Positions 7,862 through 37,009 of a stretch of DNA of 64,000 nt are shown here, piece by piece. The stretch is from Brachybacterium fresconis (GTDB lineage Bacteria; Actinomycetota; Actinomycetes; Actinomycetales; Dermabacteraceae), in assembly GCF_017876515.1 (NCBI RefSeq), contig NZ_JAGIOC010000001.1, positions 310,001-374,000 of the forward strand, in the 5' to 3' direction. Below the pieces are notes generated by a model. That model did no database searches, was not told the origin of the DNA, and was given only the letters and a program-made list of their open reading frames with translations. Each line of letters starts with the position of its first letter. Within the stretch, counting starts at the first letter, position 1. The translations under genes and the position numbers were made by a program.

Positions 7862-10060
7862 TCAGTGGCGAGCCCGGACGGCGGCGACGGTCGCTTCCGG
7901 ACGCAGGTCGAGGCGTCGCAGGAGCTGGGCGTTCAGGGCGACGACGATGGTGGACAGGGACATGAGGATCGCGCCGACGGACATCGGCAGCACGAATCCG
8001 ATGGGGGCGAGGATTCCGGCCGCGAGTGGCACGGACAGCAGGTTGTAGCCGGCTGCCCACCAGAGGTTCTGCTTCATCTTGCGGTAGGCGGCTCGGGAGA
8101 GTTCGATGACCGAGAGTACCGAGCGTGGATCGGAGCTGGCGAGCACGACCCCGGCGGAGGCGATCGCGACGTCGGTGCCGGCACCGATGGCGATGCCGAC
8201 ATCTGCCTGAGCGAGTGCAGGGGCGTCGTTGACGCCGTCGCCGACCATCGCGACCTTCTTGCCCTCCTTCTGGAGCTGGACGACCTTCGAGGACTTGTCC
8301 TCGGGGCGCACCCCAGCGAAAACCCTGTCGATTCCGAGCTCCTTGCCGACACTGTTCGCGACCGCCTCGGCGTCGCCGGTGATCATGACGACCTCGACGT
8401 CCAAACTGTGCAGAGCATCGATGGCGTCGCGAGATTCGGGGCGCACCTCATCGGTGAGCTTGAGACCGCCGATCACCTCGCCGTCGCGGAGGACGTGGAG
8501 GATGATCGCGCCCTCCTGGCGCCAGGCCTCAGCCTCGTCGACTTCGCTCACTCCGGTTTCCTCGAGCAAGCGGGGACCGCCCACGCGGATCTCGTGCCCA
8601 TCCACCTGGGCACTCACGCCCAGCGCCGGGGTGGAGCTGACGTCAGAGCCCGCAGGAATCTGTGCTCCCTCGGCCTGAGCCTTGGCGACGATGGCGCGGG
8701 CGAGCGGGTGCTCGCTCTCCGCTTCGGCGGCAGCTGCCAGGGCCAGCACCTCGGTCTCGTCCGCACCGCGGGTGATGATCTCGGCGAGGGCGGGCTCGCC
8801 CTTGGTGAGGGTGCCGGTCTTGTCGAACAGGACGGCGTCGACGGTGCGCATTGCTTCCAGGGCCAGACGGTCCTTCACCAGAACACCGCCGCGGGCGGCC
8901 CGCTCGGTGGCGATGGAGACGACCAGCGGGATCGCGAGCCCCAGCGCGTGAGGGCAGGCGATGACCAGGACGGTCACTGTGCGAACAACGGCATCATCGG
9001 GCATGCCGAGCAGTGACCAGGTGATCGCGGTGATCACGGCGGCGCCGAGAGCGAACCAGAACAGCCACGCCGCAGCGGTATCTGCGATGCGCTGTGCGCG
9101 GGACGAGGAGTTCTGTGCTTCGGTCACCAGGCGCTGTATACCGGCGAGGGCGGTGTCGTCGCCCGTGGCGGTGACCTCGATGCGGAGGCTGGAGTCGGTG
9201 GCGACGGTGCCTGCCACGACGGAGTCTCCGGTGGAGCGCGTCACGGGGCGGGACTCGCCGGTGACCATGGACTCGTCCACGTCGGCGCGGCCTTCGCGGA
9301 TCGTGCCGTCGGCCGGGACGCTCGCCCCGGGGCGGACGAGGACGAGGTCGCCTCGCTGCAGCTCGGTGGGCGAGATGCTCACGAGCTCGTCGCCTTCGAT
9401 GCGTTCTGCCATGTCCGGGAGCAGGGCGGCCAGGGAGTCGAGTGCGGAGGTGGTCTGGGCGAGGGAACGCATCTCGACCCAGTGGCCCAGCAGCATGATC
9501 ACGATCAGCAGGGCGAGCTCCCACCAGAACTCGAGCTGGTGGTCGAGGAGGCCGAGGGTCGCACCCCAGGAGGCGATGAACGCGACCGTGATCGCGAGCC
9601 CGATCAGGAGCATCATCCCGGGCTGACGGGAACGGACCTCGGAGACGGCACCGGTGAGGAACGGGCGGCCACCCCAGACGTACATGACTGTGCCGAGGGC
9701 CGGGGCGATCCCCATCGCGCCGGGGACATCGGGAATGCTGTACCCGAGCAGCATCGCGAACATCGGCGAGAACACGACAACTGGGACCGCGATGATCAGG
9801 TTGATCCAGAACAACCGCCGGAACTGCCCGACGTGGTCCCCGTGACCGGCGTGACCCCCGTGCCCTGAATGACCCTCGTGTTCCAAGTGGTCCTCGTGGT
9901 CTCCGTGAGTTCCGTGGTCGTGATGCGCGTCGGGTGCGTCGTGCTCAGCAATACCGGTGTGGGCGCCATGAGGCGTGGGGGAAGGATGAGAGTGCTGCAT
10001 GCCGGGTTCTCCGTGGTCGTGACGGTGTGGGTGGTTGCCAGCGTTCATGCACCCGACCAT
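7862..10060 (-). CDS. copB: CopB-type copper P1B-ATPase with His-rich N-terminus
   Basis: 732-aa P-type ATPase. The first about 80 residues hold about 20 His in DH/GH repeats and no HMA Cys motif. Then come eight membrane segments, the actuator SMVTGESRPV, the membrane metal motif CPH in VLVIACPHALGLAIP, phosphorylation site DKTGTLTKGE, hinge [14 protein letters not shown], and a C-terminal pair of helices. CPH rather than CPC places it in the P1B-3 (CopB) group, which exports Cu(II)/Cu(I) or silver. ATG 10060 abuts the CsoR operator; ATG 10048 four codons later is an alternative and would leave a short leader. csoR follows 26 bp downstream. Confidence 0.93.
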   Translation of the reverse strand: MVGCMNAGNHPHRHDHGEPGMQHSHPSPTPHGAHTGIAEHDAPDAHHDHGTHGDHEDHLEHEGHSGHGGHAGHGDHVGQFRRLFWINLIIAVPVVVFSPMFAMLLGYSIPDVPGAMGIAPALGTVMYVWGGRPFLTGAVSEVRSRQPGMMLLIGLAITVAFIASWGATLGLLDHQLEFWWELALLIVIMLLGHWVEMRSLAQTTSALDSLAALLPDMAERIEGDELVSISPTELQRGDLVLVRPGASVPADGTIREGRADVDESMVTGESRPVTRSTGDSVVAGTVATDSSLRIEVTATGDDTALAGIQRLVTEAQNSSSRAQRIADTAAAWLFWFALGAAVITAITWSLLGMPDDAVVRTVTVLVIACPHALGLAIPLVVSIATERAARGGVLVKDRLALEAMRTVDAVLFDKTGTLTKGEPALAEIITRGADETEVLALAAAAEAESEHPLARAIVAKAQAEGAQIPAGSDVSSTPALGVSAQVDGHEIRVGGPRLLEETGVSEVDEAEAWRQEGAIILHVLRDGEVIGGLKLTDEVRPESRDAIDALHSLDVEVVMITGDAEAVANSVGKELGIDRVFAGVRPEDKSSKVVQLQKEGKKVAMVGDGVNDAPALAQADVGIAIGAGTDVAIASAGVVLASSDPRSVLSVIELSRAAYRKMKQNLWWAAGYNLLSVPLAAGILAPIGFVLPMSVGAILMSLSTIVVALNAQLLRRLDLRPEATVAAVRARH

Positions 10061-18359: not shown

Positions 18360-18475
18360 AGAATGCGCTGGGATAAGCCGTGCCCAAGTGGCCGAGAGGC
18401 CATACCGAGCGTGGCGCGTCAGACGCGAGGATCACGCCGACGGCAGCGATGGTGACGTCCATGCCGGCACCGTCT
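18360..18475 (-). pseudogene. P-type ATPase C-terminal scrap
   Basis: The minus strand reads GAGMDVTIAAVGVILASDAP then RSVW..., recognisably the hinge-to-TM7 segment that in copB reads GAGTDVAIASAGVVLASSDP RSVL. Only about 35 codons remain, ending at a stop near 18360. It borders the nuoN stop codon directly, so it marks a deletion or recombination joint. Confidence 0.6.
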
Positions 18476-19909
18476 TTAGAACAGCAGGGGTCCTTCCAGA
18501 GCCGCCCACAGGAAACCGGCCAGGATGCCGAGCCCCAGGCTCGCGGTGGCAGCCACCCCGGCGGTGGCTGCCGGCCAGGTGGCCGCTCCGCCCGGGCGGG
18601 GGAAGCTAGCGCCGTTATCGGTAGGACGGGCGAACGCGGGCGCGAACCAGCGCAGGTAGTAGAACAGGCTGAGCACGCTGTTGAGCATCACGACCAGCGC
18701 CAACCAGCCGTGCCCGCCGTCCCAGGCTGCGGTGGCGGTGGTGAGCTTGCCGACGAACACGGCCAGCGGTGGGGTGCCCACCAGGCCCAGCAGCGCGACG
18801 AGCAGAGCCAGGGCCAGCCCGGGGCGGGACCGGGCCAGACCTCGGTAGTCACTCAGCTCGCGGTGGTGGGGCAGCGCTGCGGTGACGGCGAAGGCGGCGA
18901 CGTTGGCCAGGGCATAGGCGGCGAGGTAGAACAAGAATGAGGGCAGTGCCAGATCACTGCGACCCGCCGCGGCCACCGGGACGAGCAGGAACCCGACCTG
19001 GGCCACGGTCGACCAGCCCAGCAGCCGGCGGGGATCGGTCTGCCAGTACGCGGCAAGGTTGCCCACGACCATGGAGGTCGTGGCCAGCACGCCTGCGACG
19101 ACCAGCCAGGAGCCGTCGCCTTCGGAGATCGTGGCCACGAATCGGTAGACGGCTACCAGCGCTCCGATCTTGGGGACCGTGGTCAGGAACGTCGCGGCGG
19201 TGCCGCCGGTGCCCTGTGTGGCGTCGGGTACCCAGAAGTGCAGGGGCACGCCGCCGGCCTTGAACAGCAACCCGGCGAGCACGCCCAGCACGCCGACCCC
19301 CACGGCTGCGGCCGGGGCCCCGGGTAGCACGTCCCGCAGCAGGGCGTAGTCGGTGCCCCCGGCCACGGCGTAGAGCACGGTGACCCCGAGCATGAGCAGG
19401 ATCCCGGACAACGCGCCCATGAGGTAGGTCTTCATCGCCGCTTCGGCCCCGGCCCGGCCGCCGGTCAGGCCGATAATCCCGTACAAGGGGATGCTGACCA
19501 GCAGGAATCCGGCTACGAGCACGAGCAGGTCGGTGGTTCCGGCTAGCACCATCACCCCGGTGGTGGCGAAGAGCAGCAGCGCGTAGGTGTCGGACTCTCG
19601 CGGCGAGCCGGCGAGTTCCCCGGAGGCCACCCCGAGGACCAACAGGGTCGTCAGGGCCGCGATTATCCGGGCGGCTCCGGTGGCGACGTCCACAGCGAAG
19701 GTGCCTGAGAACGCGCTCTGTTCGGGGCCGGTCATCGCCACGGCGGCGGCGACCGTGGCACCGAGCAGGGCTACCGCGGCGACGGCGCGGGCGATCCACT
19801 GCCGCTGGCGGGGCAGGAATGAGCCGCCCAGCAGCACCACCAGGCCGCCGATGAAGACGAGGATCTCCGGCAGCAGCAGGGCGGGCCGCATCTGCATCGA
19901 GGCCTCCAC
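18476..19909 (-). CDS. nuoN: NuoN-like subunit of an orphan Complex I membrane arm
   Basis: 477 aa, about 14 membrane helices, homologous to the antiporter-like subunit NuoN. Pump residues kept: the Lys of TM7/8 in LLFKAGGVPLHFWVPDA and TTVPKIGALVAVYRF, and the TM12 Lys in GTPPLAVFVGKLTT. The TM5 Glu expected in the Glu-Leu-Leu-Ser-Ile-Pro-Leu-Tyr motif is missing: the sequence is GFLLVSIPLYGIIGL. It is the last gene of the minus-strand operon that begins with nuoA at 28044, 3 bp after nuoM. Without NuoE/F/G/I nearby, canonical NADH oxidation is not supported. Confidence 0.88.
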   Translation of the reverse strand: MEASMQMRPALLLPEILVFIGGLVVLLGGSFLPRQRQWIARAVAAVALLGATVAAAVAMTGPEQSAFSGTFAVDVATGAARIIAALTTLLVLGVASGELAGSPRESDTYALLLFATTGVMVLAGTTDLLVLVAGFLLVSIPLYGIIGLTGGRAGAEAAMKTYLMGALSGILLMLGVTVLYAVAGGTDYALLRDVLPGAPAAAVGVGVLGVLAGLLFKAGGVPLHFWVPDATQGTGGTAATFLTTVPKIGALVAVYRFVATISEGDGSWLVVAGVLATTSMVVGNLAAYWQTDPRRLLGWSTVAQVGFLLVPVAAAGRSDLALPSFLFYLAAYALANVAAFAVTAALPHHRELSDYRGLARSRPGLALALLVALLGLVGTPPLAVFVGKLTTATAAWDGGHGWLALVVMLNSVLSLFYYLRWFAPAFARPTDNGASFPRPGGAATWPAATAGVAATASLGLGILAGFLWAALEGPLLF

Positions 19910-19912
19910 CGG

Positions 19913-21409
19913 TTACCTCCCGACCAAGGAGACCAGGGCCGCGGAGGCCGGCTCGATCACCTCGAGCAGGACTCGAGGCAGCACCCCGATGAGCACGGAC
20001 AGGGCCAGCAGCGGACCGACCGACCACAGCTCCCGGACGCGCAGATCCGCGAACCCGGGCGATCGGCCCTCCGTGGGGCCGGTGAACACTTGCTGCAGCG
20101 CCCGCAGGAACAGGGCGGCCGTGACCAGGATGCCCGGCAGGGCGATGGCGGTGACCGGGGCGACCGCGATGCTGCCGGCGAAGATCTGGAACTCGGCGAT
20201 GAATCCGGAGAACCCGGGCAGGCCCAGGGAGGCGAAGGCACCGACCGCGAACAGCGCCGCATACCGCGGCGCGGGACCGGCCAGGCCTCCGTAGGAACCC
20301 ATGTCATAGGTGCCGGCCCGATCCTGCATCACCCCCGCCAGCAGGAACAGCGCGGCGGTGATCAACCCGTGGCTGACCATCTGCACCACCGCACCGGTGA
20401 CCGCCACCGAGCGGGCCTGCTCGGCGCCCTCGGCGACCAGACCCGCCGCACCCAGGGCCAGGACGATGTAGCCCATATGATTGACGGAGGTGTAGGCCAC
20501 CATCCGCTTGAGGTCCGTCTGAGCCAGCGCCACGAACGCTCCGTACAGCACCGAGACGATACCGATCGCCACGATCACCCAGGCCCAGGACCGCCACGCC
20601 TCCGGGAGCATCGGCATGGCGATGCGCACGAACCCATAGGTCCCCATCTTCAGCAACACCGCAGCCAGCACGGCCGAACCGGTCGCCGGGGCGTCGGTGT
20701 GGGCCGGTGGCAACCAGGTATGGAAGGGAACGGTGGGGGTCTTCACCGCGAGACCGACCACGATCGCCGCCAGCACCAGCCCCCCGGTCAGCGGGCTGTC
20801 ATCGAGCGGGGTGGCCGCGACAAGCTCGGGGATGTCGAAGGTGTGCGGTGCGGCGGCCACGTAGAGCCCGATAAAGCCCAGCAGCAGGGCCAGTGATCCC
20901 AGAAACGTGTAGAGGAAGAACTTCAGGGCCGAGCGGGCAGCGTTGCCATGGCCCCATCCGGCGATCACGAAGTACATGCCCACGATCGAGAGATCGAAGA
21001 ACACGAAGAACAGGATGAGGTCGGCTGCCACGAACACCCCCAGACTCACGCCCTGCAGGAACAGGAACAGGGCCGCCTGAATCCGGGGCCGGTCGGGCTG
21101 GCGCAGGGCGTAGACGGCACAGGCCAGGAACACGATCGTCGTCATGGCCACCAGCGGTAACGAGAGACCATCCACGCCCACGTGATAGCTGCTGTTCACC
21201 CCCGGGATCCACGGCACCTGCTGCTCGTACGCCAGTGCGTTTTGCCCCGGGTCCTCATAACCGACCCACAGCACTCCGACGAGCACCAGCTCGACCGCGC
21301 TCACGGCGACCCAGGCCCAGCGGGCGACCGCAGGGCCGACCGCCGGCATCGCCGCCAGGACGACGGCGCCGGCCAGGGGCAGGAAAACGATCAGACTCAG
21401 CATGCTCAT
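19913..21409 (-). CDS. nuoM: NuoM-like antiporter subunit
   Basis: 498 aa, about 14 membrane helices. NuoM landmarks: LFFVFFDLSIVGMYFVIAGW in TM5, KFFLYTFLGSLALLLGF, and the broken-helix segment PFHTWLPPAHTDAPATGSA with LLKMGTYGFVRI. The TM5 acidic residue, normally Glu (FWExMLxPMY), is Asp here. The conserved Lys residues of TM7/8 are present. It overlaps nuoL by 4 bp (ATGA). Confidence 0.9.
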   Translation of the reverse strand: MSMLSLIVFLPLAGAVVLAAMPAVGPAVARWAWVAVSAVELVLVGVLWVGYEDPGQNALAYEQQVPWIPGVNSSYHVGVDGLSLPLVAMTTIVFLACAVYALRQPDRPRIQAALFLFLQGVSLGVFVAADLILFFVFFDLSIVGMYFVIAGWGHGNAARSALKFFLYTFLGSLALLLGFIGLYVAAAPHTFDIPELVAATPLDDSPLTGGLVLAAIVVGLAVKTPTVPFHTWLPPAHTDAPATGSAVLAAVLLKMGTYGFVRIAMPMLPEAWRSWAWVIVAIGIVSVLYGAFVALAQTDLKRMVAYTSVNHMGYIVLALGAAGLVAEGAEQARSVAVTGAVVQMVSHGLITAALFLLAGVMQDRAGTYDMGSYGGLAGPAPRYAALFAVGAFASLGLPGFSGFIAEFQIFAGSIAVAPVTAIALPGILVTAALFLRALQQVFTGPTEGRSPGFADLRVRELWSVGPLLALSVLIGVLPRVLLEVIEPASAALVSLVGR

Positions 21410-23319
21410 CCCATCACGGCATAGACGGACCAGGCCACGACGCCGATCGCGAGGACCGCGACGGCCTGGAGGAAGTACTGGTGGATGGCTCCGGTCTGCG
21501 GGATCCGGGCCAGATGCCCGAGCCGGCGGACCCGACCGGCGAGGATCTCCACCCCACGGTCCACTCCGTCGTCATCGACCCTCGCCGCCAGGTGACCGGT
21601 CACGTCGACGGCGTGCGCGGTGGCGTCGAACCCGGCGTCGAGAAACCGGTCGTCGGCACGGGCGGCGATTCGCGCTAGCACAGGCACCGCCCCGGCGGCG
21701 GCCATCACGGTGCGGTCCAGGACGTGGTCATCGAACCGAGCCAGGGCGTGCGCCAGGGACAGGGACGGGCGGACGACGACGGCATGCGCGATCCTCTCCA
21801 GCCCCAGCCACTCACGGGCCCATCTCGGCTCGGGGGCGCGTAGCCGCAGCATCAGCAGCAGCACGGCCGCCGCGATCACGGCCGAGAGAGCCAGCTCGAC
21901 GGCCGAGACCTCGCCGTGCCCGCCCAGGGCCTGGGCGAGGGCCCGGCTGAGCGGGGGCAGAGCGAGCACGACGAGCCCGGCCGCGCCGGTGGCCAGCACG
22001 ACCAGCGGCGCCTGCGCCAGGGCCCCCACCTGGCCGGTGCCGCCCGCACGGACTCCCGCGCCGTCCCCGCGGCGCCAGATCGCCCACAGGGCCTTGCCGG
22101 CATAGGCGGCCGACAGGGCGGACGCCAGCAACCCGGCGGCATAGAGCCACGGGGAGGCCTCGAGCGCAGCAGCCAGCACGGCGTCCTTGGTCGCCCACAG
22201 GGACAGCGGGGCGATCCCCGCCAGGGCCAGCGCCCCCACGCTCGCGCAGACCCCGACAACCCGCCACCGACGCCCCACTCCGCGTAGTCTCGCGAGATCT
22301 TCGGTGCCCACCGCCGTCAACCATGCCCCGGCAGCCAGGAAGAGCAGGGCCTTGGTGGAGGCGTGCGCCACCAGATGGGCCGCGCCGCCACTGACCGCGC
22401 CGACGCCGGCAGCGAGAACGACGAACCCCAGCTGGGCGACCGTGGAGGCGGCCAGGAGCTGTTTGAGCTCCCGCTGGGCCAGCGCCACGATGCCCATCAG
22501 CACCGCGGTGAGCATCCCGAGCCAGGCGGCGACTGGCCCGGCCCACCCGGTCGCAGCCAACAACGGCTCCACGCGCAGAAGCAGAAAGCCGCCCATGGCC
22601 ACCATCGCCGCTGAGTGCAGCAGCGCGCTCACCGGGCTGGGACCCTGCATCGCCCCGGAGAGCCAGAACGAGAAGGGCAGCTGTGCGGCCTTCCCCAGGG
22701 CAGCGACCAGGATCCCGGCCGCGACGACGTGGCGCCACGGGTCCGTCGCGGCGGGGAGGTCAGCCAGCGCCATTCCTGCTCCGCCGGCCAGGGCGGCGCC
22801 GGCGGCGACGTAGAGGCCCAGGTCGGCGGTGCGGGTGGTGAGGAAGGCGGTGAGCCCCGCCGAGACCCGGTGCGGTTCCCGCCACCAGAACCCGATCAGG
22901 GCGTAGGAGGTCGCGCCCATCACCTCCCAAGCGAACAGCAGCGCCGGGATACTGGCGGCGGAGGCCGTGACCAAGGCCGCGGCGGAGAAGATCAGCATCA
23001 GCCCGTGGAAGCGGGCCCGGGACTCCCGGATGCTCCCAGCCGCGAAGACCAGCACCAGGAAGGTCACCGCGGCGATCATCGGTGCGGTCAGCGCCGCAAG
23101 GGCATCCACCTCCAGTGCGAAGTCGGCGCCGGCCAGGAACGGGGACGACAGCGCCGGCCTGGCCAGGGCGACGACTGCCGCCAGTGCCGTGGTGAGCCCA
23201 GCGGTGGCCACCGCGATCGGTGTCGCAACGCGTTCCCACCGGCGGGTCAGGGCCAGCGCGGCGCCCATGCCCCCCGGGAGCAGCACCATGGCGAGCAACG
23301 CGCCCTCGGCCCCGCTCAT
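21406..23319 (-). CDS. nuoL: NuoL-like antiporter subunit
   Basis: 637 aa from ATG 23319, overlapping nuoK by 4 bp. TM5 Glu is present (LLFAWEVMGATSYALIGFWW), as are the TM7 Lys (GKAAQLPFSFWLSGAMQGPS) and the loop PVSALLHSAAMVAMGGFLLL, where the second usual His/Thr is Ser-Ala. The C-terminal part ends in a single helix after a hydrophilic stretch and is shorter than the long amphipathic HL helix of E. coli NuoL. It forms the distal pump of the membrane arm. Confidence 0.9.
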   Translation of the reverse strand: MSGAEGALLAMVLLPGGMGAALALTRRWERVATPIAVATAGLTTALAAVVALARPALSSPFLAGADFALEVDALAALTAPMIAAVTFLVLVFAAGSIRESRARFHGLMLIFSAAALVTASAASIPALLFAWEVMGATSYALIGFWWREPHRVSAGLTAFLTTRTADLGLYVAAGAALAGGAGMALADLPAATDPWRHVVAAGILVAALGKAAQLPFSFWLSGAMQGPSPVSALLHSAAMVAMGGFLLLRVEPLLAATGWAGPVAAWLGMLTAVLMGIVALAQRELKQLLAASTVAQLGFVVLAAGVGAVSGGAAHLVAHASTKALLFLAAGAWLTAVGTEDLARLRGVGRRWRVVGVCASVGALALAGIAPLSLWATKDAVLAAALEASPWLYAAGLLASALSAAYAGKALWAIWRRGDGAGVRAGGTGQVGALAQAPLVVLATGAAGLVVLALPPLSRALAQALGGHGEVSAVELALSAVIAAAVLLLMLRLRAPEPRWAREWLGLERIAHAVVVRPSLSLAHALARFDDHVLDRTVMAAAGAVPVLARIAARADDRFLDAGFDATAHAVDVTGHLAARVDDDGVDRGVEILAGRVRRLGHLARIPQTGAIHQYFLQAVAVLAIGVVAWSVYAVMG

Positions 23320-23618
23320 CGGGACAGCTCCTCGGCCATGTCCGTCATGTCGGTCTGGCGCCGGCGGTGCAGCAACGTGGCCACGGCGAAGCCCATGGCC
23401 ATCTCCACGGTCATCGCCGCCAGCACGACCAGCAGCAGCACCTGCCCGGAAGGGTCCGGGGCCAGGAACCACCAGAATCCGGCGGCGGCCAGCAACACCC
23501 CGTTGATCATCAGCTCCAGACCCATCATCACCATCACCACCACCTGCTGGGACAGCGCTCCGTAGAGGCCCACCGCGAACAGCGCGGCGGCCACCACCAG
23601 CACGGCTTCCAGGGTCAT
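23316..23618 (-). CDS. nuoK: NuoK-like subunit
   Basis: 100 aa, three membrane helices. The two membrane Glu residues essential in NuoK are both present (MGLELMINGVLLA and LAAMTVEMAMGFAV), so the E-channel acidic pair is intact. It overlaps nuoJ and nuoL by 4 bp each. The Met content is high. Confidence 0.9.
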   Translation of the reverse strand: MTLEAVLVVAAALFAVGLYGALSQQVVVMVMMGLELMINGVLLAAAGFWWFLAPDPSGQVLLLVVLAAMTVEMAMGFAVATLLHRRRQTDMTDMAEELSR

Positions 23619-24178
23619 CGGCCCACACCCCCCGGCTGGGGATCGTCGGCCGGCCGGCGGCGTAGGTCGTCACCGAACCGGTCGTAGCGGGTGCGATGAG
23701 CGGCCAGCACCACCCCGGACACGATGGTTGCCACCAGGACCGCACCCACCACGACCATGACCAGCATCTTCTCGTCCATGATCGCCAAGCCGATCGCCTG
23801 CGTGAGGTCCTCGGGCGGGGCGCCGCGTCGCTCCGGCCAGGGGATGAGCAGGGCGCCGGCAGCCAGCAGCCCGAAAACGCCGGCCGAGGCGCCGATCGCC
23901 GTCTTCTTCCCGTGGGTCATGTCCATCGGCATCAGCGCCGGGTTCATGCCCATGAACATCACCATGTAAACAGCCATCACCGCCATCTCCATCACCATCA
24001 TCAAGATCGTGATGACCCCGAGATAGCTCTGCTGCAAGAGGAGGATCTGCACTCCCACGGCGATGAACGACAGCGCCAGGGCGTAGGTGGCCCGGGCCAT
24101 GGAGTCCACCACGAACACGGCTACGCCCGCGGCCACGGCCACCACGGCGAGTACCCAGAACACGATTGTGAACAGCAC
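23615..24178 (-). CDS. nuoJ: NuoJ-like subunit with a Met-dense core
   Basis: 187 aa, five predicted helices. The NuoJ TM3 region is LQQSYLGVITILMMVMEMAV. Residues 60-87 contain 12 Met in 28 positions (including MVMEMAVMAVYMVMFMGMNP), far denser than in respiratory NuoJ. Its C-tail is hydrophilic. It overlaps nuoK by 4 bp and starts 3 bp after the nuoH stop. The Met clustering resembles copper-handling membrane proteins, but it may simply be a trait of this subfamily. Confidence 0.87.
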   Translation of the reverse strand: MLFTIVFWVLAVVAVAAGVAVFVVDSMARATYALALSFIAVGVQILLLQQSYLGVITILMMVMEMAVMAVYMVMFMGMNPALMPMDMTHGKKTAIGASAGVFGLLAAGALLIPWPERRGAPPEDLTQAIGLAIMDEKMLVMVVVGAVLVATIVSGVVLAAHRTRYDRFGDDLRRRPADDPQPGGVGR

Positions 24179-24858
24179 GGTTCAGCCCTTCCCGACGACG
24201 ACGAGAGACACGACCAGGTCCTGGGCCACGGCCGCAGGCAGCAAGACCACCCACCCGATCTCCATGAACCGGTCCGGTCGGAACATCGGCAGCTTCCGCC
24301 GCAACCACACCAGCACGGTCAGCACCGCCACGGTCTTCACCAGCACCCACGCCCAGCCCGGCAGCACGGGCCCGGCGCCCCCGCCCAGGAACAGCGGTAC
24401 CGCGAAGGCCGCCCCGGCAGCCAACAACGCGTAGCGCCCGGCCAGGAAAACAAGGCGGTCCAACCCGGAGAGTTCACTCAGCACACCACCGGCAATGTCC
24501 GCGGAAAGGGCCGGGGCGAACGGGCCCCACACCGAGAACCCGGTCACCCCGATCAGATAGACCAGGAACGCCACCGGCATCCACACCACGAACCACAGGC
24601 CCTCCTGCGCGGCAGCCACCTCCCCGACGCGAAGACTGCCAGCCGCGATCGCCGGGGCCACCAGCGCAAACATCAAGGGGAGCTCGTATGCCAGCCCATG
24701 GGCAAGGAACCGGTAGCCACCCACCAGGCTGTGCGTCGAATTGGCGCCCCACCCGGCCAACCACACCAGGGCCCAGACCATGACGTCCACGGCGTTGAAC
24801 CACACCACCCCCACGTCCAGGTCCGCCAGCGTCCTGAATCGGCCCAGGTTCTCTGCCG

Positions 24859-25872
24859 CTACTTTGCGGGTTCGGGCTCTCGGTCGAGGGCCTCGTAGTG
24901 GAGCGTCTCGAACTCTACCGGGGTGAGCATCCCGAGGGAGCCGTGGAGACGCCGGTTGTTGTACCAGTCGACCCAGCCGGCGGTCGCGAACTCGACGTCC
25001 GAGAGCGTCCGGAAGGGGCCGGCGTGGAAGACCGTGGTGCGGATGCACTCGGTCTTGTACAGGCCGTTCACGCCCTCCATGAGGGCGTTGTCATACGCGT
25101 CGCCGACGGTCCCGATCGACGGGGCAATGCCCTCGAGGTCGAGGTGCTCGGTGTACCGGACCGAGGTGTACTGGGACCCGGCATCGCTGTGCGCTACCAA
25201 AGATCCTGGTGGGACCGGGTTTCCGTCGCGGTCGCGCTGCCACAGTGCGATCCGCAGCGGAGTCATCACCAGGTCGGTGCGCATGCTGGAGCTGGCGTGC
25301 CAGCCCACGATCCGCTGGGCGAACACGTCCACGACGAACGCGACATAGACGAACCCCGCCCACGTCCGGACATACGTGAAATCGGTGACCCAGACCCGGT
25401 CCGGAGCCGGAGCCGTGAAGTCACGACTCAGCAGGTCACCGGCACGTTTCCCATCCGGATTAGGGATGGTGGTGCGCAGCTTCTTCACCCGCCGCACGCC
25501 CTCGAGGCCAAGGGTCCGCATGGCCCGGTCGACCGCGCCGCGGGAGGTGCCGGCGAGGCCTTCTTGGCGGCGGAGCAAGGCAACCCACTTCCGTCGCCCG
25601 TACAAGCCCTCCGGCGTCATCTGCACCTGCCCGGTGACCGGGTTGAACTTCCATGCAAGCTCGCGGACCTTGTCCTCGACCAGAGCGTCTGTGACGGTGC
25701 GAGCAGCGATGCGGGCCGGCCGTTTCCAGGCCCGGTAGGTGCGTGCAGCGATCTCCAGGCCCTGCTGGCGCAGGACGCGGAGGATCGACTCGACTGCATA
25801 GCCCTCGGCGCGCATCTCGTCGATGAAGGCGAGGATCAGCGGTTGCGGGGGTCGAGCTCCCCCGCGAAGAAA
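24859..25872 (-). CDS. IS3-family transposase OrfB (integrase domain)
   Basis: Retroviral-type rve domain of IS3 elements: Asp in DRVWVTDFTYVRTWAGFVYV, Asp in LVAHSDAGSQYTSVRY and the Glu in DNALMEGVNGLYKTE, closing with WVDWYNNRRLHGSLGMLTPVEFE. It has no own start; the frame joins orfA by a -1 frameshift around the TTTTC run near 25870 (minus strand), giving an OrfAB fusion, as usual for the family. Confidence 0.9.
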   Translation of the reverse strand, partial: FLRGGARPPQPLILAFIDEMRAEGYAVESILRVLRQQGLEIAARTYRAWKRPARIAARTVTDALVEDKVRELAWKFNPVTGQVQMTPEGLYGRRKWVALLRRQEGLAGTSRGAVDRAMRTLGLEGVRRVKKLRTTIPNPDGKRAGDLLSRDFTAPAPDRVWVTDFTYVRTWAGFVYVAFVVDVFAQRIVGWHASSSMRTDLVMTPLRIALWQRDRDGNPVPPGSLVAHSDAGSQYTSVRYTEHLDLEGIAPSIGTVGDAYDNALMEGVNGLYKTECIRTTVFHAGPFRTLSDVEFATAGWVDWYNNRRLHGSLGMLTPVEFETLHYEALDREPEPAK

Positions 25873-26147
25873 ATTGAGGCCCGGCGGAGGATCTCGTTGT
25901 CCTCCCGCAATCGCTTGACCTCGGCCTTCAGTCGTTTGACCTCGGCGGATTCTTCGGTCGTGGTGCCGGGACGGGACCCGTCGTCGACCTCGGCCTGGGC
26001 CAGCCAGCGCCGCACGGACTCCCGCGAGACGCCCTCTTGGCGGGCGACCGCGGCCGTCGCCGCGGTCAGGGTGGGGTACTCCTGGGCGTGCTCGCGCACG
26101 AGCCGCACGCACCTCGCGCGCAGCTGGGGATCGATCTTCTTCGGCAT
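25836..26147 (-). CDS. IS3-family OrfA (HTH protein)
   Basis: About 103 aa from ATG 26147 (GAGAGGATGG upstream; ATG 26156 also possible). HTH_Tnp_1 region with KKIDPQLRARCVRLVREHAQ and ARQEGVSRESVRRWLAQAEV, then a leucine-zipper-like helix EVKRLKAEVKRLREDNEILR. It supplies DNA binding and is the 5' partner of the frameshifted OrfAB transposase. Confidence 0.88.
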   Translation of the reverse strand: MPKKIDPQLRARCVRLVREHAQEYPTLTAATAAVARQEGVSRESVRRWLAQAEVDDGSRPGTTTEESAEVKRLKAEVKRLREDNEILRRASIFFAGELDPRNR

Positions 26148-26458
26148 GCTGTCCATCCTCTCGGACTCAAACAGCAGCGGCATCAAACCTGGGCCGATTC
26201 ACCGCGACCATTACGAACGCCCCGACCAGCAGGCCCGCGCCACCGATCCGCCACAGCAGCGTGTCCGCGGCCACGGTGGTCCGGCGCCGCTGCCGCAGCA
26301 GCCGCGCGGTGCGGGCCACGGGCGCCACCCAACCACCGGAGGCGCCGTGGGCGCGAGCGGACAATGCCGCCTCCAGAGCAACAGCGAAGAACGCGAGGCC
26401 GCCCAGAATGATGGCTGCCAGTACGGCCCATCCGGCAGAGACGGTCGTCACCACGGAC

Positions 26459-27709
26459 TCAGACATGCCTCGCCTCCTGGACGGCCGGGAACGGAACAAG
26501 ATCCAAGCTCGCCACCGCCAGCCGCACAGAGGCCACTTCCACCCCTGGCACCAGGTGCGGCACAATCTCCCAAGGCACCACACCTGTCTCGATCGGCGCC
26601 ACGGGCTCCTCGTTGCGTGTCTCGGCCCGGATCACGTCGAGGCTCCACAGCAACCGGTCGTGGGCGTCCCCGAGACAACGGCTCGGCAAGCCATGACGCT
26701 CTAGATCAGCGGAGGTGAGAGGCAGAACGCTCCGCAGAGACCAACGCAGCAGCCGCGATTTCCGCACTGTGCGGTACAACCGCTCAACGGCGTCCTGGGC
26801 AGCATCTTGTTCGCCGTGCAGCAGTGTGTCCCGGGCATGGCGGGCACGGGCTGCCGCATCTTCCGCCCCCGCAAGTGCCAGCAACGCCAGGGCACTGTCA
26901 CACCGCACCGCCGGGGACACGGGGCCGGGACGCTTCGCCTGCACCGGAGTCCCGTAGCCCCCACCATCGATCACAGCTGCCTCGGCGTCGACCACGACAT
27001 CGCCCTGCAACGAGCAGCGAAGGACCAGCCCTGCCGGCCAGAACGGCAAGACAGGACCCAGCGCCAGATGCAGGACATCCATCTCCAGACCGTCACGGTC
27101 TTCCCCGCCCTGGGCCAACGGAATGCCCCCCGGAGCCATGTCCATTCCGCCGTGGCCGCCATGACCCTCGTGGCTCTCGTGGCCGCCATGACCCTCGTGG
27201 CCGCCATGGCCGTCGTGGTTCTCGTGGCCCGCCTGGTCATGTTCCATCTCGCCATGGTCTGGGTTCCTCATACCGGGGTGTTCTTCGGGGGGCGTCCCGT
27301 CGTGCTCACCATGGTCGAGGTCCCCGTCGTCCATGTCGTTGGAGTCGTCAGAAAGCTGAGGTTCCTGCAGTCGGCCCTGCGCATCTGCTCTATGACCGGG
27401 AGTGTCGAGAAGGAGGTCAGCGGCGGTGCGTAGAGCCAATGCCACAGCGTCGGGCGAGCTGATGCTGGTGCGTACCCGCGGACCGGGCATCTGCTCCCAG
27501 ATGAGGTCCACCAGTTCCGCCAGTTCAGGGCCGGGCACGCCGCACACCGCAAGGACGTCCGCATCGGCTGGGGTCCACGCCCGTCGCCATCCACGGCGCA
27601 GCATCTGATGTTCGAGCTCCACACGTATCGACCACTGGCCCGGCGGCTCGACAACGAGGACGTGGGCAGCACGGACGGCGAGTCCGGCGAGGAGTTCGTT
27701 CAGACCCAT
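26459..27709 (-). CDS. NuoB/NuoD-like fusion with His-rich linker, no N2 cysteines
   Basis: 416 aa from ATG 27709, overlapping nuoA by 10 bp and nuoH by 8 bp. Residues about 15-82 follow the C-terminal half of NuoB (ADADVLAVCGVPGPELAELV then IWEQMPGPRVRTSI, compare ADxxxVxGxxxxKMAPxLRxxYxQMPEPRxVISMG). Residues 133-186 hold 14 His in GH/EH/DH repeats. Residues about 205-250 follow the N-terminal sheet of NuoD (LALGPVLPFWPAGLVLRCSL). Only four scattered Cys occur and no CC motif, so the N2 Fe-S cluster cannot form. I infer a peripheral cap on the membrane arm, perhaps metal-binding. It could also be a regulatory subunit. Confidence 0.7.
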   Translation of the reverse strand: MGLNELLAGLAVRAAHVLVVEPPGQWSIRVELEHQMLRRGWRRAWTPADADVLAVCGVPGPELAELVDLIWEQMPGPRVRTSISSPDAVALALRTAADLLLDTPGHRADAQGRLQEPQLSDDSNDMDDGDLDHGEHDGTPPEEHPGMRNPDHGEMEHDQAGHENHDGHGGHEGHGGHESHEGHGGHGGMDMAPGGIPLAQGGEDRDGLEMDVLHLALGPVLPFWPAGLVLRCSLQGDVVVDAEAAVIDGGGYGTPVQAKRPGPVSPAVRCDSALALLALAGAEDAAARARHARDTLLHGEQDAAQDAVERLYRTVRKSRLLRWSLRSVLPLTSADLERHGLPSRCLGDAHDRLLWSLDVIRAETRNEEPVAPIETGVVPWEIVPHLVPGVEVASVRLAVASLDLVPFPAVQEARHV

Positions 27710-28044
27710 CGAAACGCCCCTTCCCGCCAAGCCCAGGCCACAGCGACAAGCAGAGCGCCGAGAAAGAGGAACATCTCGACGACTGCGGAGAGCCCCTTCT
27801 CAATCACGACCACGGCCCAGGGGTACATGAACAGCATCTCGACGTCGAAGGCCAGGAAGATGATGGACGCAAGATACCAACGCACGTGGAAGCGCGATAG
27901 GGCGTGCTCCTGGGGCACCCATCCAGATTGGGCAGGCAACGAGGTCAACGGATCGACGTGAACCGTCAAGACACGATGCGCCGCGAACAGCGCCACGAGG
28001 GTCAGCATCGCCACCAAGGCCATGGCCACAATCCCGAAATACAT
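27700..28044 (-). CDS. nuoA: NuoA-like subunit
   Basis: 114 aa, three helices, first gene of the operon. NuoA signature: ALSRFHVRWYLASIIFLAFD followed by VEMLFMYPWAVVV, with the conserved Asp/Glu (FDVE) of the NuoA TM1-2 region present. Start ATG 28044 with GAAAGGT about 7 bp upstream; an extended frame to 28092 lacks a ribosome site. Confidence 0.9.
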   Translation of the reverse strand: MYFGIVAMALVAMLTLVALFAAHRVLTVHVDPLTSLPAQSGWVPQEHALSRFHVRWYLASIIFLAFDVEMLFMYPWAVVVIEKGLSAVVEMFLFLGALLVAVAWAWREGAFRWV

Positions 28045-28138: not shown

Positions 28139-28264
28139 TCATCTGACTGAACCGGCCTCCTCGACTGCGCCGAGGACCGTGGTGTCGTCGATTTCGTTCT
28201 CGGAGGTGACGACGAGGCGAACCGTCTGGGCGCTCACCTGGAGGTCGGTCACCTCGGAGAGCCC
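28139..28264 (-). pseudogene. copZ: copZ 3'-half fossil
   Basis: The minus strand reads LSEVTDLQVSAQTVRLVVTS, then ENEIDDTTVLGAVEEAGSVR-stop, clearly the second half of CopZ (LSGVTDIQVSAQTGRLVVTS in the intact gene at 14902-15114). The Cu(I)-binding GMTCxxC half is missing. It abuts the TetR fossil. Confidence 0.8.
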
Positions 28265-28461: not shown

Positions 28462-29964
28462 TCAGGGCGCGTAGTCGATGCCGGTCATCATGCCGACCTC
28501 CTGGTGGTACGCGTTGTGGCAGTGCGCTGCCCACCGGCCCGGATTGTCCGCATCGAAGTCGAGGGCGAACGATTCCATAGGCGCGAGCATCACCGTGTCC
28601 TTCCGGAGCCCCGACGGCAGGGCGAAGGTATGCCCGTGGATGTGGAGGGGGTGGCTCATCATCGTCTGGTTGGTCGCGAGGATGCGCGCACGCTGTCCCT
28701 CGCGGATGCTGAGTGGCGTGTTCTGCCCGTAGGGGGCGCCGTTGATGGCCCATTGGTACGGCCGCATCGAGCCTTGGAACGCGAGCTCGAGCTCGGTGTC
28801 GACGGCGCGGTCCTCGAGTCGCGCGGCCTCGGCCGGTTCCAGAGTGGATCCGATGAGGACCTCCCCATCGAGCTCCCGGACCTGGACGTCCGCAGCGGGC
28901 GCTTCCCCGGCACCGGTCCTCAGCACGGCGAGCCCTTGGCCGCCGCTGGGTTTCCCGACGGGACGGGCCACCAGAGGGAACATGCCGTCCTTCACGGTGA
29001 CCACCACGTCGTACCGTTCGCCCATGCCGAGATAGAGCGCCTTGGCGGTGACCGGTTCGACGGGGAATCCGTCCGATTGGGTGACGGAGAGGTCGTGGTC
29101 GCCGAGCGCGAGGGCGAAGATGGTGTCGGCGGAGGCGTTGATCATGCGGATGCGCACGCGCTGGCCGGGCTTCGCGTCGAAGATCTGCGGTGCTTCGGGG
29201 ATCCGGCCGTTGATGAGGAAGTGGGGGTAGGCCACGTCACCGGCGTCGCCCCAGGGTGCGTTCCCCATCGGCATGCCGCCGTGGTCCATGCCGCCAGGTC
29301 CGTCGTCGCCCATGGGCATGTCGCCGTGGTCCATGCCGCCGCCATCCGAAGGCCGGGCGCCGGTCAGCGCGGCCAGGACCTCGTCGGGGGTCTGTCCGGT
29401 GCCATCGATCCAGTCATCGAGGGTCACGATCCATTCCGCATCGTAGTCACCGGGTTCGTCGGGATCGTCGATGATCAGCGGTGCGTAGAGCCCGCGGTCC
29501 AGCTGCAGGCCGACGTGGGAGTGGAGGAAGTAGGTGCCGGGGTCGGGGGCGACGAACTCGTAGCTGAAAGAGGTGTCTGGCTCGACCGGGTCCTGGGTCA
29601 TTCCGGGCACCCCGTCGGCTGCGTTGTGCAGTCGGATGCCGTGCCAGTGGATCGTGGAGGCCTCGGGCAGGCGGTTCTCGAGCGTGATGCGCAGCAGATC
29701 CCCGGCCGTGGCGCGGATCAGCGGCCCGGGGAGGGACTCGCCGTATGCCCAGGTCGAGACCGTCTTCCCTCCGAGGTCCACCGTCGTCGGCGCCGCGGCG
29801 AGGGTCTGGGTGACGACGTTCTGACCGGCTTTCGGCGTCAGGGCAGGAGGCGGTGCGAAGCCTCCAACTTCGGTCGGAGCGGCTCGGTCGCCACATGCCG
29901 CGAGCGTCAGTGCTGCCGCGCCGAGGCCTCCGGAGAACACGGTGCGGCGGGAAAAAGTCTTCAC
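28462..29964 (-). CDS. Multicopper oxidase (CueO/laccase-like), Tat lipoprotein
   Basis: About 500 aa from GTG 29964 (AGAAGGA upstream). Tat signal SRRTVFSGGLGAAALTLAACG with lipobox LAAC. Copper sites: THWHG-type TIHWHGIRLHN, YFLHSHVGLQ, HPLHIHGHTF and HCHNAYHQEVGMM with the axial Met (T1, T2 and T3 ligands complete). A Met/His-rich insert around residues 240-270 (MDHGDMPMGDD repeats) resembles CueO's cuprous-oxidase segment. Likely oxidises Cu(I) to Cu(II) outside the membrane. Regulation by the adjacent two-component system is plausible. Confidence 0.93.
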   Translation of the reverse strand: MKTFSRRTVFSGGLGAAALTLAACGDRAAPTEVGGFAPPPALTPKAGQNVVTQTLAAAPTTVDLGGKTVSTWAYGESLPGPLIRATAGDLLRITLENRLPEASTIHWHGIRLHNAADGVPGMTQDPVEPDTSFSYEFVAPDPGTYFLHSHVGLQLDRGLYAPLIIDDPDEPGDYDAEWIVTLDDWIDGTGQTPDEVLAALTGARPSDGGGMDHGDMPMGDDGPGGMDHGGMPMGNAPWGDAGDVAYPHFLINGRIPEAPQIFDAKPGQRVRIRMINASADTIFALALGDHDLSVTQSDGFPVEPVTAKALYLGMGERYDVVVTVKDGMFPLVARPVGKPSGGQGLAVLRTGAGEAPAADVQVRELDGEVLIGSTLEPAEAARLEDRAVDTELELAFQGSMRPYQWAINGAPYGQNTPLSIREGQRARILATNQTMMSHPLHIHGHTFALPSGLRKDTVMLAPMESFALDFDADNPGRWAAHCHNAYHQEVGMMTGIDYAP

Positions 29965-29995
29965 AGGTGCAGTCCTTCTAGAGCGAGGGGTGGTG

Positions 29996-30232
29996 TCATG
30001 GCCGAAAGGCGTCCAAGACCAGCCGTCGTCGTTGCTCGAACTCATCGGCCGTGATCTCTCCTCGAGCCAGGCGCAGCGAGAGTTCCCCGATCGCCTCGTT
30101 CTCGTCCCGAGCGCGTCGGGGGCGCCCGGGCAACACGGTGCGTGCCAGCAGCAGCGCCGAGGCCCAGAGGAGGGCGAGCAGACCGGCGACGATCACCCAT
30201 ACCAGCCACGACATCGCATCGGTAGGCATCAT
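29996..30232 (-). CDS. SHOCT-domain membrane protein
   Basis: 78 aa. One N-terminal helix (WLVWVIVAGLLALLWASALLL) and a C-terminal SHOCT motif (LSLRLARGEITADEFEQRRR). SHOCT domains are short C-terminal interaction modules. It lies 31 bp upstream of the oxidase gene, probably in the same transcript, with the divergent two-component system on the other side. Confidence 0.75.
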   Translation of the reverse strand: MMPTDAMSWLVWVIVAGLLALLWASALLLARTVLPGRPRRARDENEAIGELSLRLARGEITADEFEQRRRLVLDAFRP

Positions 30233-33040: not shown

Positions 33041-33702
33041 CAGGCGGCCTCCGCCAGCACGGTCTCCAGGAGACTCTCGAGGGTGCTCTGATCGGCAGCG
33101 CCCGTGATCCGGGCGGCTACTCGTCCTTCAGCATCGAGGATCAATGTCGTGGGGACGGCGTTGGGCGAGACGCTGCCGTCCATGGACGCGATCACGACCC
33201 CGTCGGGGTCCGGGATCGAGGGATAGGTGATGCCGAAGGTCTCCTCGAACGCGGCGGCCGGTCCGGCCTTGTCGCGGGTGTTCACTCCCACGAACTCCAC
33301 CCCCTGGGCGCCATATTCGCTATGCACTGCCTTCAACGCTGGACCTTCGACCCGGCACGGTGGACACGAGGCGTACCAGACGTTGATCACCAACGGTGCA
33401 CCGCGCAGCGCCGTGGAGTCGAAGTCGTCTGCGCTGTACGTCGTTCCCCGGATCTCCAGAGGAGCGGCGCGTCCCTCCGGGGGGATCTCGACGACAACAC
33501 CATCACCGGAGACATACCCGGCGTTCGCCTCACTCGCCGCATCCGAGGAACCGCTGCACGCCGCAAGAAAGGGAGCAAGGACGAGCAGACCGCCGCCCAG
33601 TCGGAGCGTGGTCCGCCGACTCGGGCCGGGCCGAGCCCCGCTCCGCACGACTGGGTCGATGACGGGGCGTCGAAGTGCGGTGCGGATGCTTCGTCGGCTC
33701 AC
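33040..33702 (-). CDS. TlpA/ResA-like thioredoxin lipoprotein
   Basis: 220 aa. An Arg-rich start with SRRT and a lipobox (LLVLAPFLAACSG), then a thioredoxin fold with WYASCPPCRVEGPALK (CPPC active site) and the cis-Pro in SPNAVPTTLILDAEGRV. A periplasm-side thiol reductase, operating with CcdA. It overlaps the cueP stop by 4 bp (ATGA). Confidence 0.9.
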   Translation of the reverse strand: MSRRSIRTALRRPVIDPVVRSGARPGPSRRTTLRLGGGLLVLAPFLAACSGSSDAASEANAGYVSGDGVVVEIPPEGRAAPLEIRGTTYSADDFDSTALRGAPLVINVWYASCPPCRVEGPALKAVHSEYGAQGVEFVGVNTRDKAGPAAAFEETFGITYPSIPDPDGVVIASMDGSVSPNAVPTTLILDAEGRVAARITGAADQSTLESLLETVLAEAA

Positions 33703-34352
33703 GTCAGCTGGAGACTGGTCAGACAGGTCAGATCATCCTCCGCCTGGGTCGAGATGGACGCGCCCCCCGCGTAGTCCTCGAGGGTGCACGTGAGCTCCGC
33801 GGTGATCCCGCGCGGCAGCCAGAAACCGAGGAACCCGTTGTCATGTGTGGTGCGAGTGCCCTCCTCGAGGATCTCGCCCGAGCTGCTGTCGACCACGCTC
33901 GCGGAGATCTCGCGGCTGCGCAGCTCCCCGCGGCACGTCGTCAGACTGTGGAACGCGCACTCGTGCGTGGTCTCCACGAACGGGGCCACCGACAGATAGA
34001 ACTGATCCTGCGGAAGGGGGAGCTCGGCCTCGCGCCCTGCATCGTCTCGGAGCTGGAGGGACGTCGCAGTGACGCTGGCGATCAGGTTCTGTGGTCGCTC
34101 GGCCACCGGGAGCGCCTCGAGACGGTCGATGATCTCGTGCGCGTCCGCGTCGGCGAAGCCATGTTCCCGGAGCAGCTCCTGATCACCCGTGACGGATGCG
34201 GGCTCGGACCCGCCGGTCCCGCAACCGGCGACCACGAGCGGGAACAGGACGGCACCGATCACGAGCGATCGCCGGGGCAGCCGCACGGTACGACGACGGG
34301 GCCCACCCCCGGAGGAGGCGCGCGGGCCTCGAAGGTACGACGGGGTGGTCAT
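33699..34352 (-). CDS. cueP: CueP-family exported copper-binding protein
   Basis: 217 aa from ATG 34352. An N-terminal lipoprotein signal (LVIGAVLFPLVVAGCG) precedes the CueP domain: LPQDQFYLSVAPFVETTHEC, FHSLTTCRGEL, NGFLGFWLPRGITAEL and C-terminal TCTLEDYAGGAS/DLTCLTSLQLT. The Cys pairs and His are the family's copper ligands and disulfide. The start overlaps the ydhK stop (TGATG). With TlpA-like and CcdA it forms a redox-plus-copper unit. Confidence 0.87.
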   Translation of the reverse strand: MTTPSYLRGPRASSGGGPRRRTVRLPRRSLVIGAVLFPLVVAGCGTGGSEPASVTGDQELLREHGFADADAHEIIDRLEALPVAERPQNLIASVTATSLQLRDDAGREAELPLPQDQFYLSVAPFVETTHECAFHSLTTCRGELRSREISASVVDSSSGEILEEGTRTTHDNGFLGFWLPRGITAELTCTLEDYAGGASISTQAEDDLTCLTSLQLT

Positions 34353-34907
34353 CACGCAGGCTCGATCTCGCTCTCGACGACCCACTTGTGGTTCGTCATC
34401 ATCATCCCGTCGGCCTCGTAGTCGACCATGTACACGGTCTCCTCGGTGGCACTGTCGATGGTGGCTTCAGCGCCCTCCATGCCCGTCATGTGGTCGGCGG
34501 TGATGACCACTTCGGTGCCCTCCGCCAGCGGTGCGTCGCCCGGGTTCTCGAGCTCCTCGTGAACGACCCATTTGTGGTCGGTGACCGGCTCGCCGCCATC
34601 GGTCGGGGTGAAGCTGACCGAGTAGGTCGTGGTGTCGAAGGCACCGGAGATCGTCGCCGTCGCCCCCTCCATGCCCTCCATGTGGTCCGCCGTGAGTGTC
34701 ACTTCCGTGCCGACCGGGAACTCGGGATCCTCCGCGGGCACCATCCCCTCAGGCGCTGGGCCGCCATCCATCGGGTGCTCCATGCCCCCGTTGCCACCAC
34801 CATCGGACGCCTCCGATGCCTCGGACCCACCCGATGTCTGACCGTCGTCAGACCCGTTGTCGGTGCATCCGGCAAACACAATCGCACCGGTGAAGACGAC
34901 GGCCGCG

Positions 34908-36340: not shown

Positions 36341-36598
36341 CGGCCGCGAGGCGACCGAAAGAACGACGAGAACGCATAATCTCTCCTAGTCAGAGGACAC
36401 TTTGCACCAGCCTATGCGCCCCAGGTCAAGGTCTCCTCAAGGTCAGATCTTCACTTCTTGAGCACCGCGCTGACCAGTCGGCCCGCATTGCCTCCGAACG
36501 TACGGTCTACTCGCTTCCGTCCTACGGGGCGCCCTGGCTATCGTCGTCGAGGCGGGCTGGTATCCGCCGGGCCGTTCGGAACGAGAAGGAGCAGGACC

Positions 36599-37009
36599 AT
36601 GACCCATCACGTCGCATCAATGCTTCAGACCTACCCGAAGGACCTCGGCACCATCGACCAGCAGAAGCTCGCCGCATGCATCGAGGCCTGCTTCGAGTGC
36701 GCCCAGACCTGCACAGCCTGCGCGGACGCCTGCTTGGCCGAGGACATGGTGGCGGAGTTGACCCAGTGCATCCGCCGGAACCAGGACTGCGCCGACGTCT
36801 GCGAAGCCACCGGACGCGTCCTGTCCCGTCAGACCGGGAAGAACGTCGCCCTCAACCGTGCCCTGCTCGAGGCATGTCAGACGGCGTGCCGGTCCTGCGC
36901 CGAGGAGTGCGAGAAGCACGCCGGCATGCACGAGCACTGCAAGGTCTGCGCGGACGCCTGTCGTCGCTGCGAGCAGGCCTGCGCCGAAATGCTGGCCTCG
37001 ATCAGCTGA
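36599..37009 (+). CDS. csp: Four-helix-bundle copper storage protein (Csp-like)
   Basis: 136 aa from ATG 36599 (AAGGAG upstream). DUF326-type Cys pattern: 17 Cys along four helices, e.g. CIEACFECAQTCTACADAC, CIRRNQDCADVC, CQTACRSCAEEC and CKVCADACRRCEQAC. In Csp proteins such Cys line the bundle core and bind many Cu(I). There is no signal peptide, so it is the cytosolic (Csp3-like) type. It is transcribed alone and ends at the hairpin 37026-37066. Confidence 0.9.
   Translation: MTHHVASMLQTYPKDLGTIDQQKLAACIEACFECAQTCTACADACLAEDMVAELTQCIRRNQDCADVCEATGRVLSRQTGKNVALNRALLEACQTACRSCAEECEKHAGMHEHCKVCADACRRCEQACAEMLASIS

Follow-up and report, generated by a model that had tools for sequence, protein, structure and literature searches.

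What does the membrane arm of respiratory complex I do once the parts that would feed it electrons have gone? The question is raised by an operon of Brachybacterium fresconis (NCBI RefSeq assembly GCF_017876515.1), which lies on the minus strand at 18476-28044 of the 64,000-nucleotide window analysed here (contig NZ_JAGIOC010000001.1, positions 310,001 to 374,000). In order of transcription it carries nuoA, a gene termed BD, nuoH, nuoJ, nuoK, nuoL, nuoM and nuoN, with neighbouring ends that overlap or abut. All subunits but BD can be assigned to known families, by Pfam for A, J, L, M, N and the 3′ part of nuoH and by NCBIfam for K. An earlier note on this DNA had described eight overlapping genes; the eight-gene operon exists, but not as eight intact genes, as nuoH is split by an IS3-type element. 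We propose, with a confidence that is evenly poised, that the operon represents a copper-dedicated family, monophyletic and horizontally mobile, of complexes that descend from the membrane arm of complex I and are free of redox chemistry; in these, Cu(I) would be moved through the J and K subunits.

The earlier note held that the locus has no E, F, G or I genes for electron input, and we observed the same throughout the family. Searches with E. coli queries found no NuoB/C/D/E/F/G/I-like gene adjoining the unit in 106 homologous loci, while in one control region (L169) those queries did pick up a nuo-like cluster of another kind. Complete nuo operons next to the unit, which the note had named as evidence against an orphan arm, were thus seen at 0 of 106 loci; instead, the set A-BD-H-J-K-L-M-N recurs complete and alone at about 100 loci. 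The note had also named nuoCDEFGI homologues elsewhere in the genome. For the families searched, NuoD (PF00346) and NuoF (PF01512), there is no match in the 4.63-Mb window genome, and the two other Proton_antipo_M loci in this genome have Mrp-like frame sizes. NuoD-family genes are present elsewhere in 25 of the 27 genomes with BD matches, the exceptions being the window genome and one other (G376). Because these two have no NuoD, the unit cannot everywhere borrow the input arm of a complex I.

The BD protein has no family match in Pfam or NCBIfam. Nevertheless, a profile built from 19 homologues matches NuoB structures (best E 5e-5), hhalign comparison with canonical NuoB gives E 4e-9, and residues 199-408 of an AlphaFold2 model (pLDDT 83, pTM 0.79, folded parts >90) match the NuoD chain 8e9h_D with a Z score of 15.6 (198 aligned residues, 3.4 Å), NuoB chains likewise being among the fold matches. 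In the copies from Rubrobacter and from Alphaproteobacteria, PF00346 itself picks out the D part, with E values as low as 4e-17. Judged by profile and model, BD is a fusion of NuoB and NuoD that the family libraries leave unclassified, with both halves shorter than their complex I counterparts. The redox chemistry appears to have been stripped out of it. The cysteines of the N2 cluster are missing from the NuoB-like half, both in alignments and in hhalign against canonical NuoB, and the quinone-site motif HPxTHG is missing from the NuoD-like half, where GPQHPSTHG has become GPVLPFWPAG by hhalign and GPFFPGLPGG in sequences from Alphaproteobacteria and Rubrobacter. BD also contains none of the Fe-S or Ni-binding cysteines of [NiFe] group 4 hydrogenases or Ehr.

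What BD has gained lies between the two halves. The linker that joins them is rich in histidine, aspartate and methionine, with a run of MDHG/MDHS repeats in some relatives, and in Alphaproteobacteria and Rubrobacter the same B/D junction holds two to five HMBD heavy-metal-binding domains. HMBD domains are also found in CusB and P-type ATPases, and Met-His repeats of this style in CopA/PcoA-type proteins; here, in contrast, they are lodged in a complex I-like protein, at the point where its B and D halves join. The insertion of different types of metal-binding sequence at one junction argues that metal binding is the job of BD. Its linkers are also richer in histidine where copper genes are near (median 16 vs 8, p 2e-4). 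One genome (G388) has two distinct BD genes, at G388:C1:3335606 and G388:C1:4241921. Bound copper could, in principle, stand in for cluster N2, so that electrons passing between copper and quinone (or another carrier) would drive or use proton pumping. Multicopper oxidases, thiol-redox genes and cupredoxins are found nearby and the charge axis through A, H, J and K is kept, which would favour such a device. However, not only is HPxTHG lost, but the charged quinone-loop residues of NuoH are replaced, and the metal inserts are long and disordered, a poor fit for a defined electron path. We regard copper-based redox coupling as improbable.

The proton machinery, by contrast with the redox parts, is retained. 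Across 82–86 homologues, the equivalents of the E. coli pump residues E144, D178, K229, K342 and K399 in NuoL, K234, K265 and E407 in NuoM, E36 and E72 in NuoK and E157 and E228 in NuoH are invariant or nearly so, with aspartate replacing E144 of NuoM. The NuoA loop residues matching D79 and E81 are invariant (86 homologues), and in NuoN the key lysines are kept and the pump residues mostly so. The earlier note, which had seen pump residues largely kept in K, L and M and degenerate quinone and Fe-S parts, was right on both counts, and A and most of N can be added to its list.

One transmembrane helix has been rebuilt. Methionine makes up 9.2% of NuoJ and 8.5% of NuoK, against 2.3% and 3.0%, respectively, in 15 canonical actinobacterial operons. 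In NuoJ the methionines form a ladder along helix 3, with the pattern LMMxMEMxxMAxxMxMxMxMNPALMPMxMxH. Met60, 61, 65, 68, 72, 76 and 78 and Glu64 are invariant in an alignment of 52 sequences, positions 60, 61, 64, 68, 72, 76 and 78 across 105 sequences, and M63 and M74 are present in ≥90%. The ladder is absent from 15 of 15 canonical actinobacterial NuoJ proteins, which read VVYTGA...LFLFVLMLVG at this place. It is kept, with the far end slightly changed, in Halomonas, Roseivivax, Acuticoccus, Sulfitobacter, Roseovarius, Nitratireductor, Paracoccus and Rubrobacter; NuoJ from Halomonas, Alphaproteobacteria and Rubrobacter is only ~38–46% identical to that of actinomycetes. A model of NuoJ (pLDDT 73, taken for helix limits only) predicts the helix at residues 51–78. 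In established complex I structures, this helix holds the π-bulge gate, which lies between the charge axis on the quinone side and NuoK.

The same eight-gene unit is found in Actinomycetes, Rubrobacter, Alphaproteobacteria and Gammaproteobacteria. In a NuoM tree, all 27 family members form one clade (support 100/97), and the complex I sequences included, from actinobacteria and E. coli, lie outside it. The cluster in L169 (G278:C1:3500001-3520000, from a Streptomyces-like genome) is a different partial nuo-like set comprising B, C/D-like, I, H, K, L, M and N; it was treated as another partial cluster in the tree rather than as a canonical outgroup, and its branch adjoins the family. Identification of the unit with the SCO4599-4608 cluster of Streptomyces coelicolor was considered and is unsupported, as the partial cluster that Streptomyces-like genomes have elsewhere is a different one and no paper links the two. 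Copies of actinobacterial type, near the Janibacter and Brevibacterium versions, are present in Lysobacter, a gammaproteobacterium (L052, L053), suggesting transfer across phyla, and there are plasmid copies in Mycobacterium, Rhodococcus, Gordonia, Pseudonocardia, Arthrobacter and Curtobacterium. By their sequence relationships and location, the Lysobacter copies and the plasmid copies across genera show that the unit moves horizontally. Ahead of the alphaproteobacterial copies (L197:4238-5461, L198:5201-5716) stand further genes, for an additional orphan proton-conducting subunit, a DUF6629 protein and an ECF-type sigma factor.

Could the operon simply be an ordinary complex I in decay? The catalytic parts are missing and, in the window genome, nuoH is broken by a 1,367-bp element with an integrase-core (rve) transposase and 40-bp inverted ends (24835-24874 and 26162-26201, 78% complementary). 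The break is recent, because the element is present in six identical full copies across the genome, the one in nuoH among them. In Brachybacterium squillarum (L037), where the homologous region is 94–98% identical in DNA to the window, nuoH is uninterrupted; 18 bp of the B. squillarum sequence are missing at the insertion point. With nuoH disrupted, the complex of the window's own genome is probably inactive. For the family, however, decay is refuted and scarcely credible beyond this one gene: elsewhere the unit is complete, conserved and mobile, its members fall in one clade, and its gained features are invariant across classes. In comparison with B. squillarum, dN/dS is 0 for K, 0.08 for M, 0.23 for the 3′ part of H, 0.25–0.30 for J, L and N and 0.55 for BD, the nuoA products do not differ, and the changes in the short 5′ part of H (6 vs 1) yield no usable value. 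By this measure most genes of the operon are under purifying selection. Other damaged copies occur on plasmids, in Ornithinimicrobium with many broken frames and in Pseudarthrobacter with an IS3 insertion beside a shortened BD (L035, L194).

The retained proton machinery, the lost redox parts, the copper-binding hub and a ladder of soft-metal type beside the coupling axis lead us to infer that the complex carries Cu(I) in a proton-coupled way; which ion is moved, and by what path, in which direction and with what coupling, all belong to that inference. BD would be a cytosolic hub that receives copper, docked where complex I binds quinone. It would pass Cu(I) to a methionine-lined path via J and K, beside the A/H/J/K charge axis, and the movement of Cu(I) would be coupled electrostatically to that of protons in the antiporter subunits L, M and N. 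The resistance context makes export the simplest direction; Cu(I) would most likely leave the cell in exchange for entering H+, with the proton motive force in place of ATP. That the complex I proton machinery has been rebuilt in this way as a proton-driven Cu(I) exporter, with a cytosolic copper hub grafted on where quinone was once bound and the NuoJ gating helix replaced by a methionine ladder, is a tentative proposal that we judge nearly as likely to be right as wrong. The earlier note's broader suggestion, an ion pump or antiporter run by something other than NADH:quinone chemistry, is supported by the lost input and the kept pump residues, the activity itself being deduced from these.

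The earlier note had the operon flanked on both sides by copper genes, which Pfam matches bear out. Using markers drawn from the window's own island and two plasmids, and 40 control regions from unit-carrying genomes, we found a copper gene in the flanks at 70 of 106 loci vs 3 of 40 controls (0.148 vs 0.006 per kb, 24-fold), figures to be read with the knowledge that most of the 106 loci were selected by similarity to the window and the 80 genome loci by likeness to its copper-island copy. The neighbours include copA, copZ, cueR, csoR, multicopper oxidases, cupredoxins, CopB and CopD. When no markers were chosen, DUF305 and DUF326 headed the Pfam count of the nearest genes (30 loci). Cleaner figures come from two other sets: copper genes accompany nine of ten proteobacterial and Rubrobacter plasmid loci picked solely by NuoJ/BD homology, and 6 of 20 loci in a class-wide sample.

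The manner in which the loci were selected is one of several points that weigh against a Cu(I) exporter. In the less biased class-wide sample, with ~10-kb flanks, copper genes are found at only those 6 of 20 loci. Among Streptomyces-like members, the majority lack copper genes within 10 kb and several linkers are short, although the methionine ladder is kept. Plasmids are in general rich in metal resistance genes, methionine-rich helices need not conduct copper, and Cu-ATPases are already plentiful nearby, so that an extra exporter would be redundant. Finally, the direction and the ion coupling are guesses.

A strict palindrome, which we take to be the CsoR operator, precedes nuoA in 15 of 119 copies and occurs in none of 324 control windows upstream of genes (p 1e-9, only a guide since related copies are not independent), and all hits have a 5-bp spacer where 0–12 bp were permitted. 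One of these sites precedes nuoA in a Streptomyces-like copy without copper neighbours (L124/G209). In the window, perfect TACCC-N5-GGGTA palindromes are found before the two metal ATPase operons (10062 and 15138) and at 38120, between the gene at 37086-38015 (NlpC/P60 protein) and 38165, and no CsoR-type site precedes the window's own nuoA. No CueR-type operator in strict form was found upstream of the proteobacterial copies. The earlier note had considered the copper link to be positional, together with metal-rich motifs only. The link itself holds and, as read from these genomes, is strong; it is now also regulatory, through the putative CsoR-type operators, and biochemical in kind, through the HMBD domains, the linkers and the NuoJ ladder.

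In the main rival explanation, copper is not itself moved: copper bound to BD and to the J/K methionines would gate the flow of H+ (or Na+) through L, M and N, guarding membrane potential or cytoplasmic pH under copper stress. Kept pump residues, copper-type regulation and metal-binding inserts on a cytosolic hub with no obvious pore are all consistent with this, but a near-invariant ladder that spans a whole membrane helix seems beyond the needs of a sensor, and we consider copper gating unlikely, though deserving of serious thought.

The unit has been met before under another interpretation. From Salinispora, Penn and Jensen (2012) reported an 'NDH-1 partial 2 operon' of seven genes, judged to be horizontally acquired (PMC3314556), and a 2018 paper on Kocuria flava S43 presented a matching partial nuo set A, H, J, K, L, M and N, the membrane portion without E/F/G/I (PMC6002675). 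In the passages concerned, the same seven clustered genes are described without the rest in named strains, the function given is marine adaptation, and BD, the methionine ladder and a copper link for the nuo unit go without mention. Searches of open papers for a copper-nuo link turned up these two papers on marine adaptation and no other account of the unit. The trees and distribution published there, and the homology of L, M and N to Mrp subunits, would favour a Na+/H+ pump for marine or hyperosmotic life. Against this stand the soil, clinical and glacier isolates among the hosts, the copper genes and CsoR-type sites, the ladder and the HMBD domains. Moreover, two Kocuria strains named in the second paper are in our set, K. 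polaris CD08-4 (L054) and K. marina SO9-6 (L066), and the latter is recorded there as a copper-mine strain (PMC6002675). A marine Na+/H+ pump is very unlikely in our estimation. To the earlier note the analysis adds the nuoH insertion, the methionine helix, the presence of the unit in Proteobacteria and these papers on partial NDH-1 operons.

With complex I, the unit has in common the proton-path residues and subunits homologous to A, B, D, H, J, K, L, M and N, but it differs in the absence of C, E, F, G and I, the fusion and shortening of B and D, the loss of the N2 ligands and HPxTHG, the metal inserts and the methionine helix in J. Mrp Na+/H+ antiporters likewise exchange ions through complex I-type antiporter subunits without redox chemistry; the unit differs in having BD, NuoA, NuoH and three separate antiporter subunits, and Pfam and NCBIfam detect no MrpE/F/G among its eight genes. 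Energy-converting hydrogenase-related (Ehr), Mbx and Fpo complexes are complex I-like modules with altered catalytic parts that keep their Fe-S small subunits, whereas the B half here has no cluster cysteines.

The features of the operon and its surroundings are listed in Table 1. Three further segments of the window were noted in the comparison with B. squillarum. About 3 kb including a TetR gene (15437-18413), between the copZ region and nuoN, is missing at this place in B. squillarum, as is a Mutator-family transposase segment (34908-36340) from a region that is otherwise colinear. A degenerate HMA/CopZ-like stretch directly upstream of nuoA (28139-28500), seemingly frame-disrupted, is detected in B. 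squillarum too.

Table 1. Features of the nuo-like operon and of the copper genes around it, in window coordinates.
Feature	Position	Strand	Basis and remarks
nuoA-like gene, 114 aa	27700..28044	-	Pfam PF00507, E 9.7e-23
BD gene, 416 aa: NuoB-like half, metal-rich linker, NuoD-like half	26459..27709	-	profile and fold
BD linker, His/Asp/Gly-rich, residues ~113-190	27140..27373	-	alignment; disordered in model, pLDDT ~45
nuoH 5′ fragment, runs into element, then stop	26167..26466	-	sequence compared with intact L037 nuoH
IS3-type insertion element within nuoH	24835..26201	-	inverted ends, rve, six identical copies, missing in L037
Element orfA	25836-26147	-	
Element rve transposase	~24859-25830	-	
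nuoH 3′ fragment	24182..24834	-	Pfam PF00146, E 2.1e-40
nuoJ-like gene	23615..24178	-	Pfam PF00499, E 2.1e-11
NuoJ third helix, methionine ladder LMMVMEMAVMAVYMVMFMGMNPALMPMDMTH, residues 59-89	23912..24004	-	alignments
nuoK-like gene, extra M31, M69 and M73 next to E35/E72	23316..23618	-	NCBIfam NuoK; residue comparison
nuoL-like antiporter subunit	21406..23319	-	PF00361, E 3.4e-47
nuoM-like antiporter subunit	19913..21409	-	TIGR01972, 484 bits
nuoN-like antiporter subunit	18476..19909	-	PF00361, E 1.9e-48
Second metal P-type ATPase	7862..10060	-	Pfam; CsoR-type site at 10062
copA-type P-type ATPase	11633-13906	-	Pfam HMA, E1-E2_ATPase
Unclassified 316-aa gene between copZ and copA	13955-14905	-	same place in L037, L088, L094
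copZ	14902-15114	-	Pfam HMA; CsoR-type site TACCCCCACGGGGTA at 15138
Multicopper oxidase	28462..30045	-	Pfam Cu-oxidase domains
CueP-type copper-binding protein	33699..34385	-	PF21172, E 2.5e-46
DUF326 protein, copper-storage-protein type	36458..37009	+	PF03860

It is still debated how, in complex I, chemistry at one end of the enzyme is linked to the movement of protons at the other. A natural relative in which the whole coupling path is kept while the input is swapped and the NuoJ gating helix altered would provide a test of which parts are needed for coupling. If copper is indeed moved, the gene group now annotated as 'NADH-quinone oxidoreductase' would need renaming, and bacteria of several classes, mycobacteria included, would possess a new, plasmid-borne route to copper resistance. 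The unit would then be a metal pump of a new class, with its origin in the respiratory chain.

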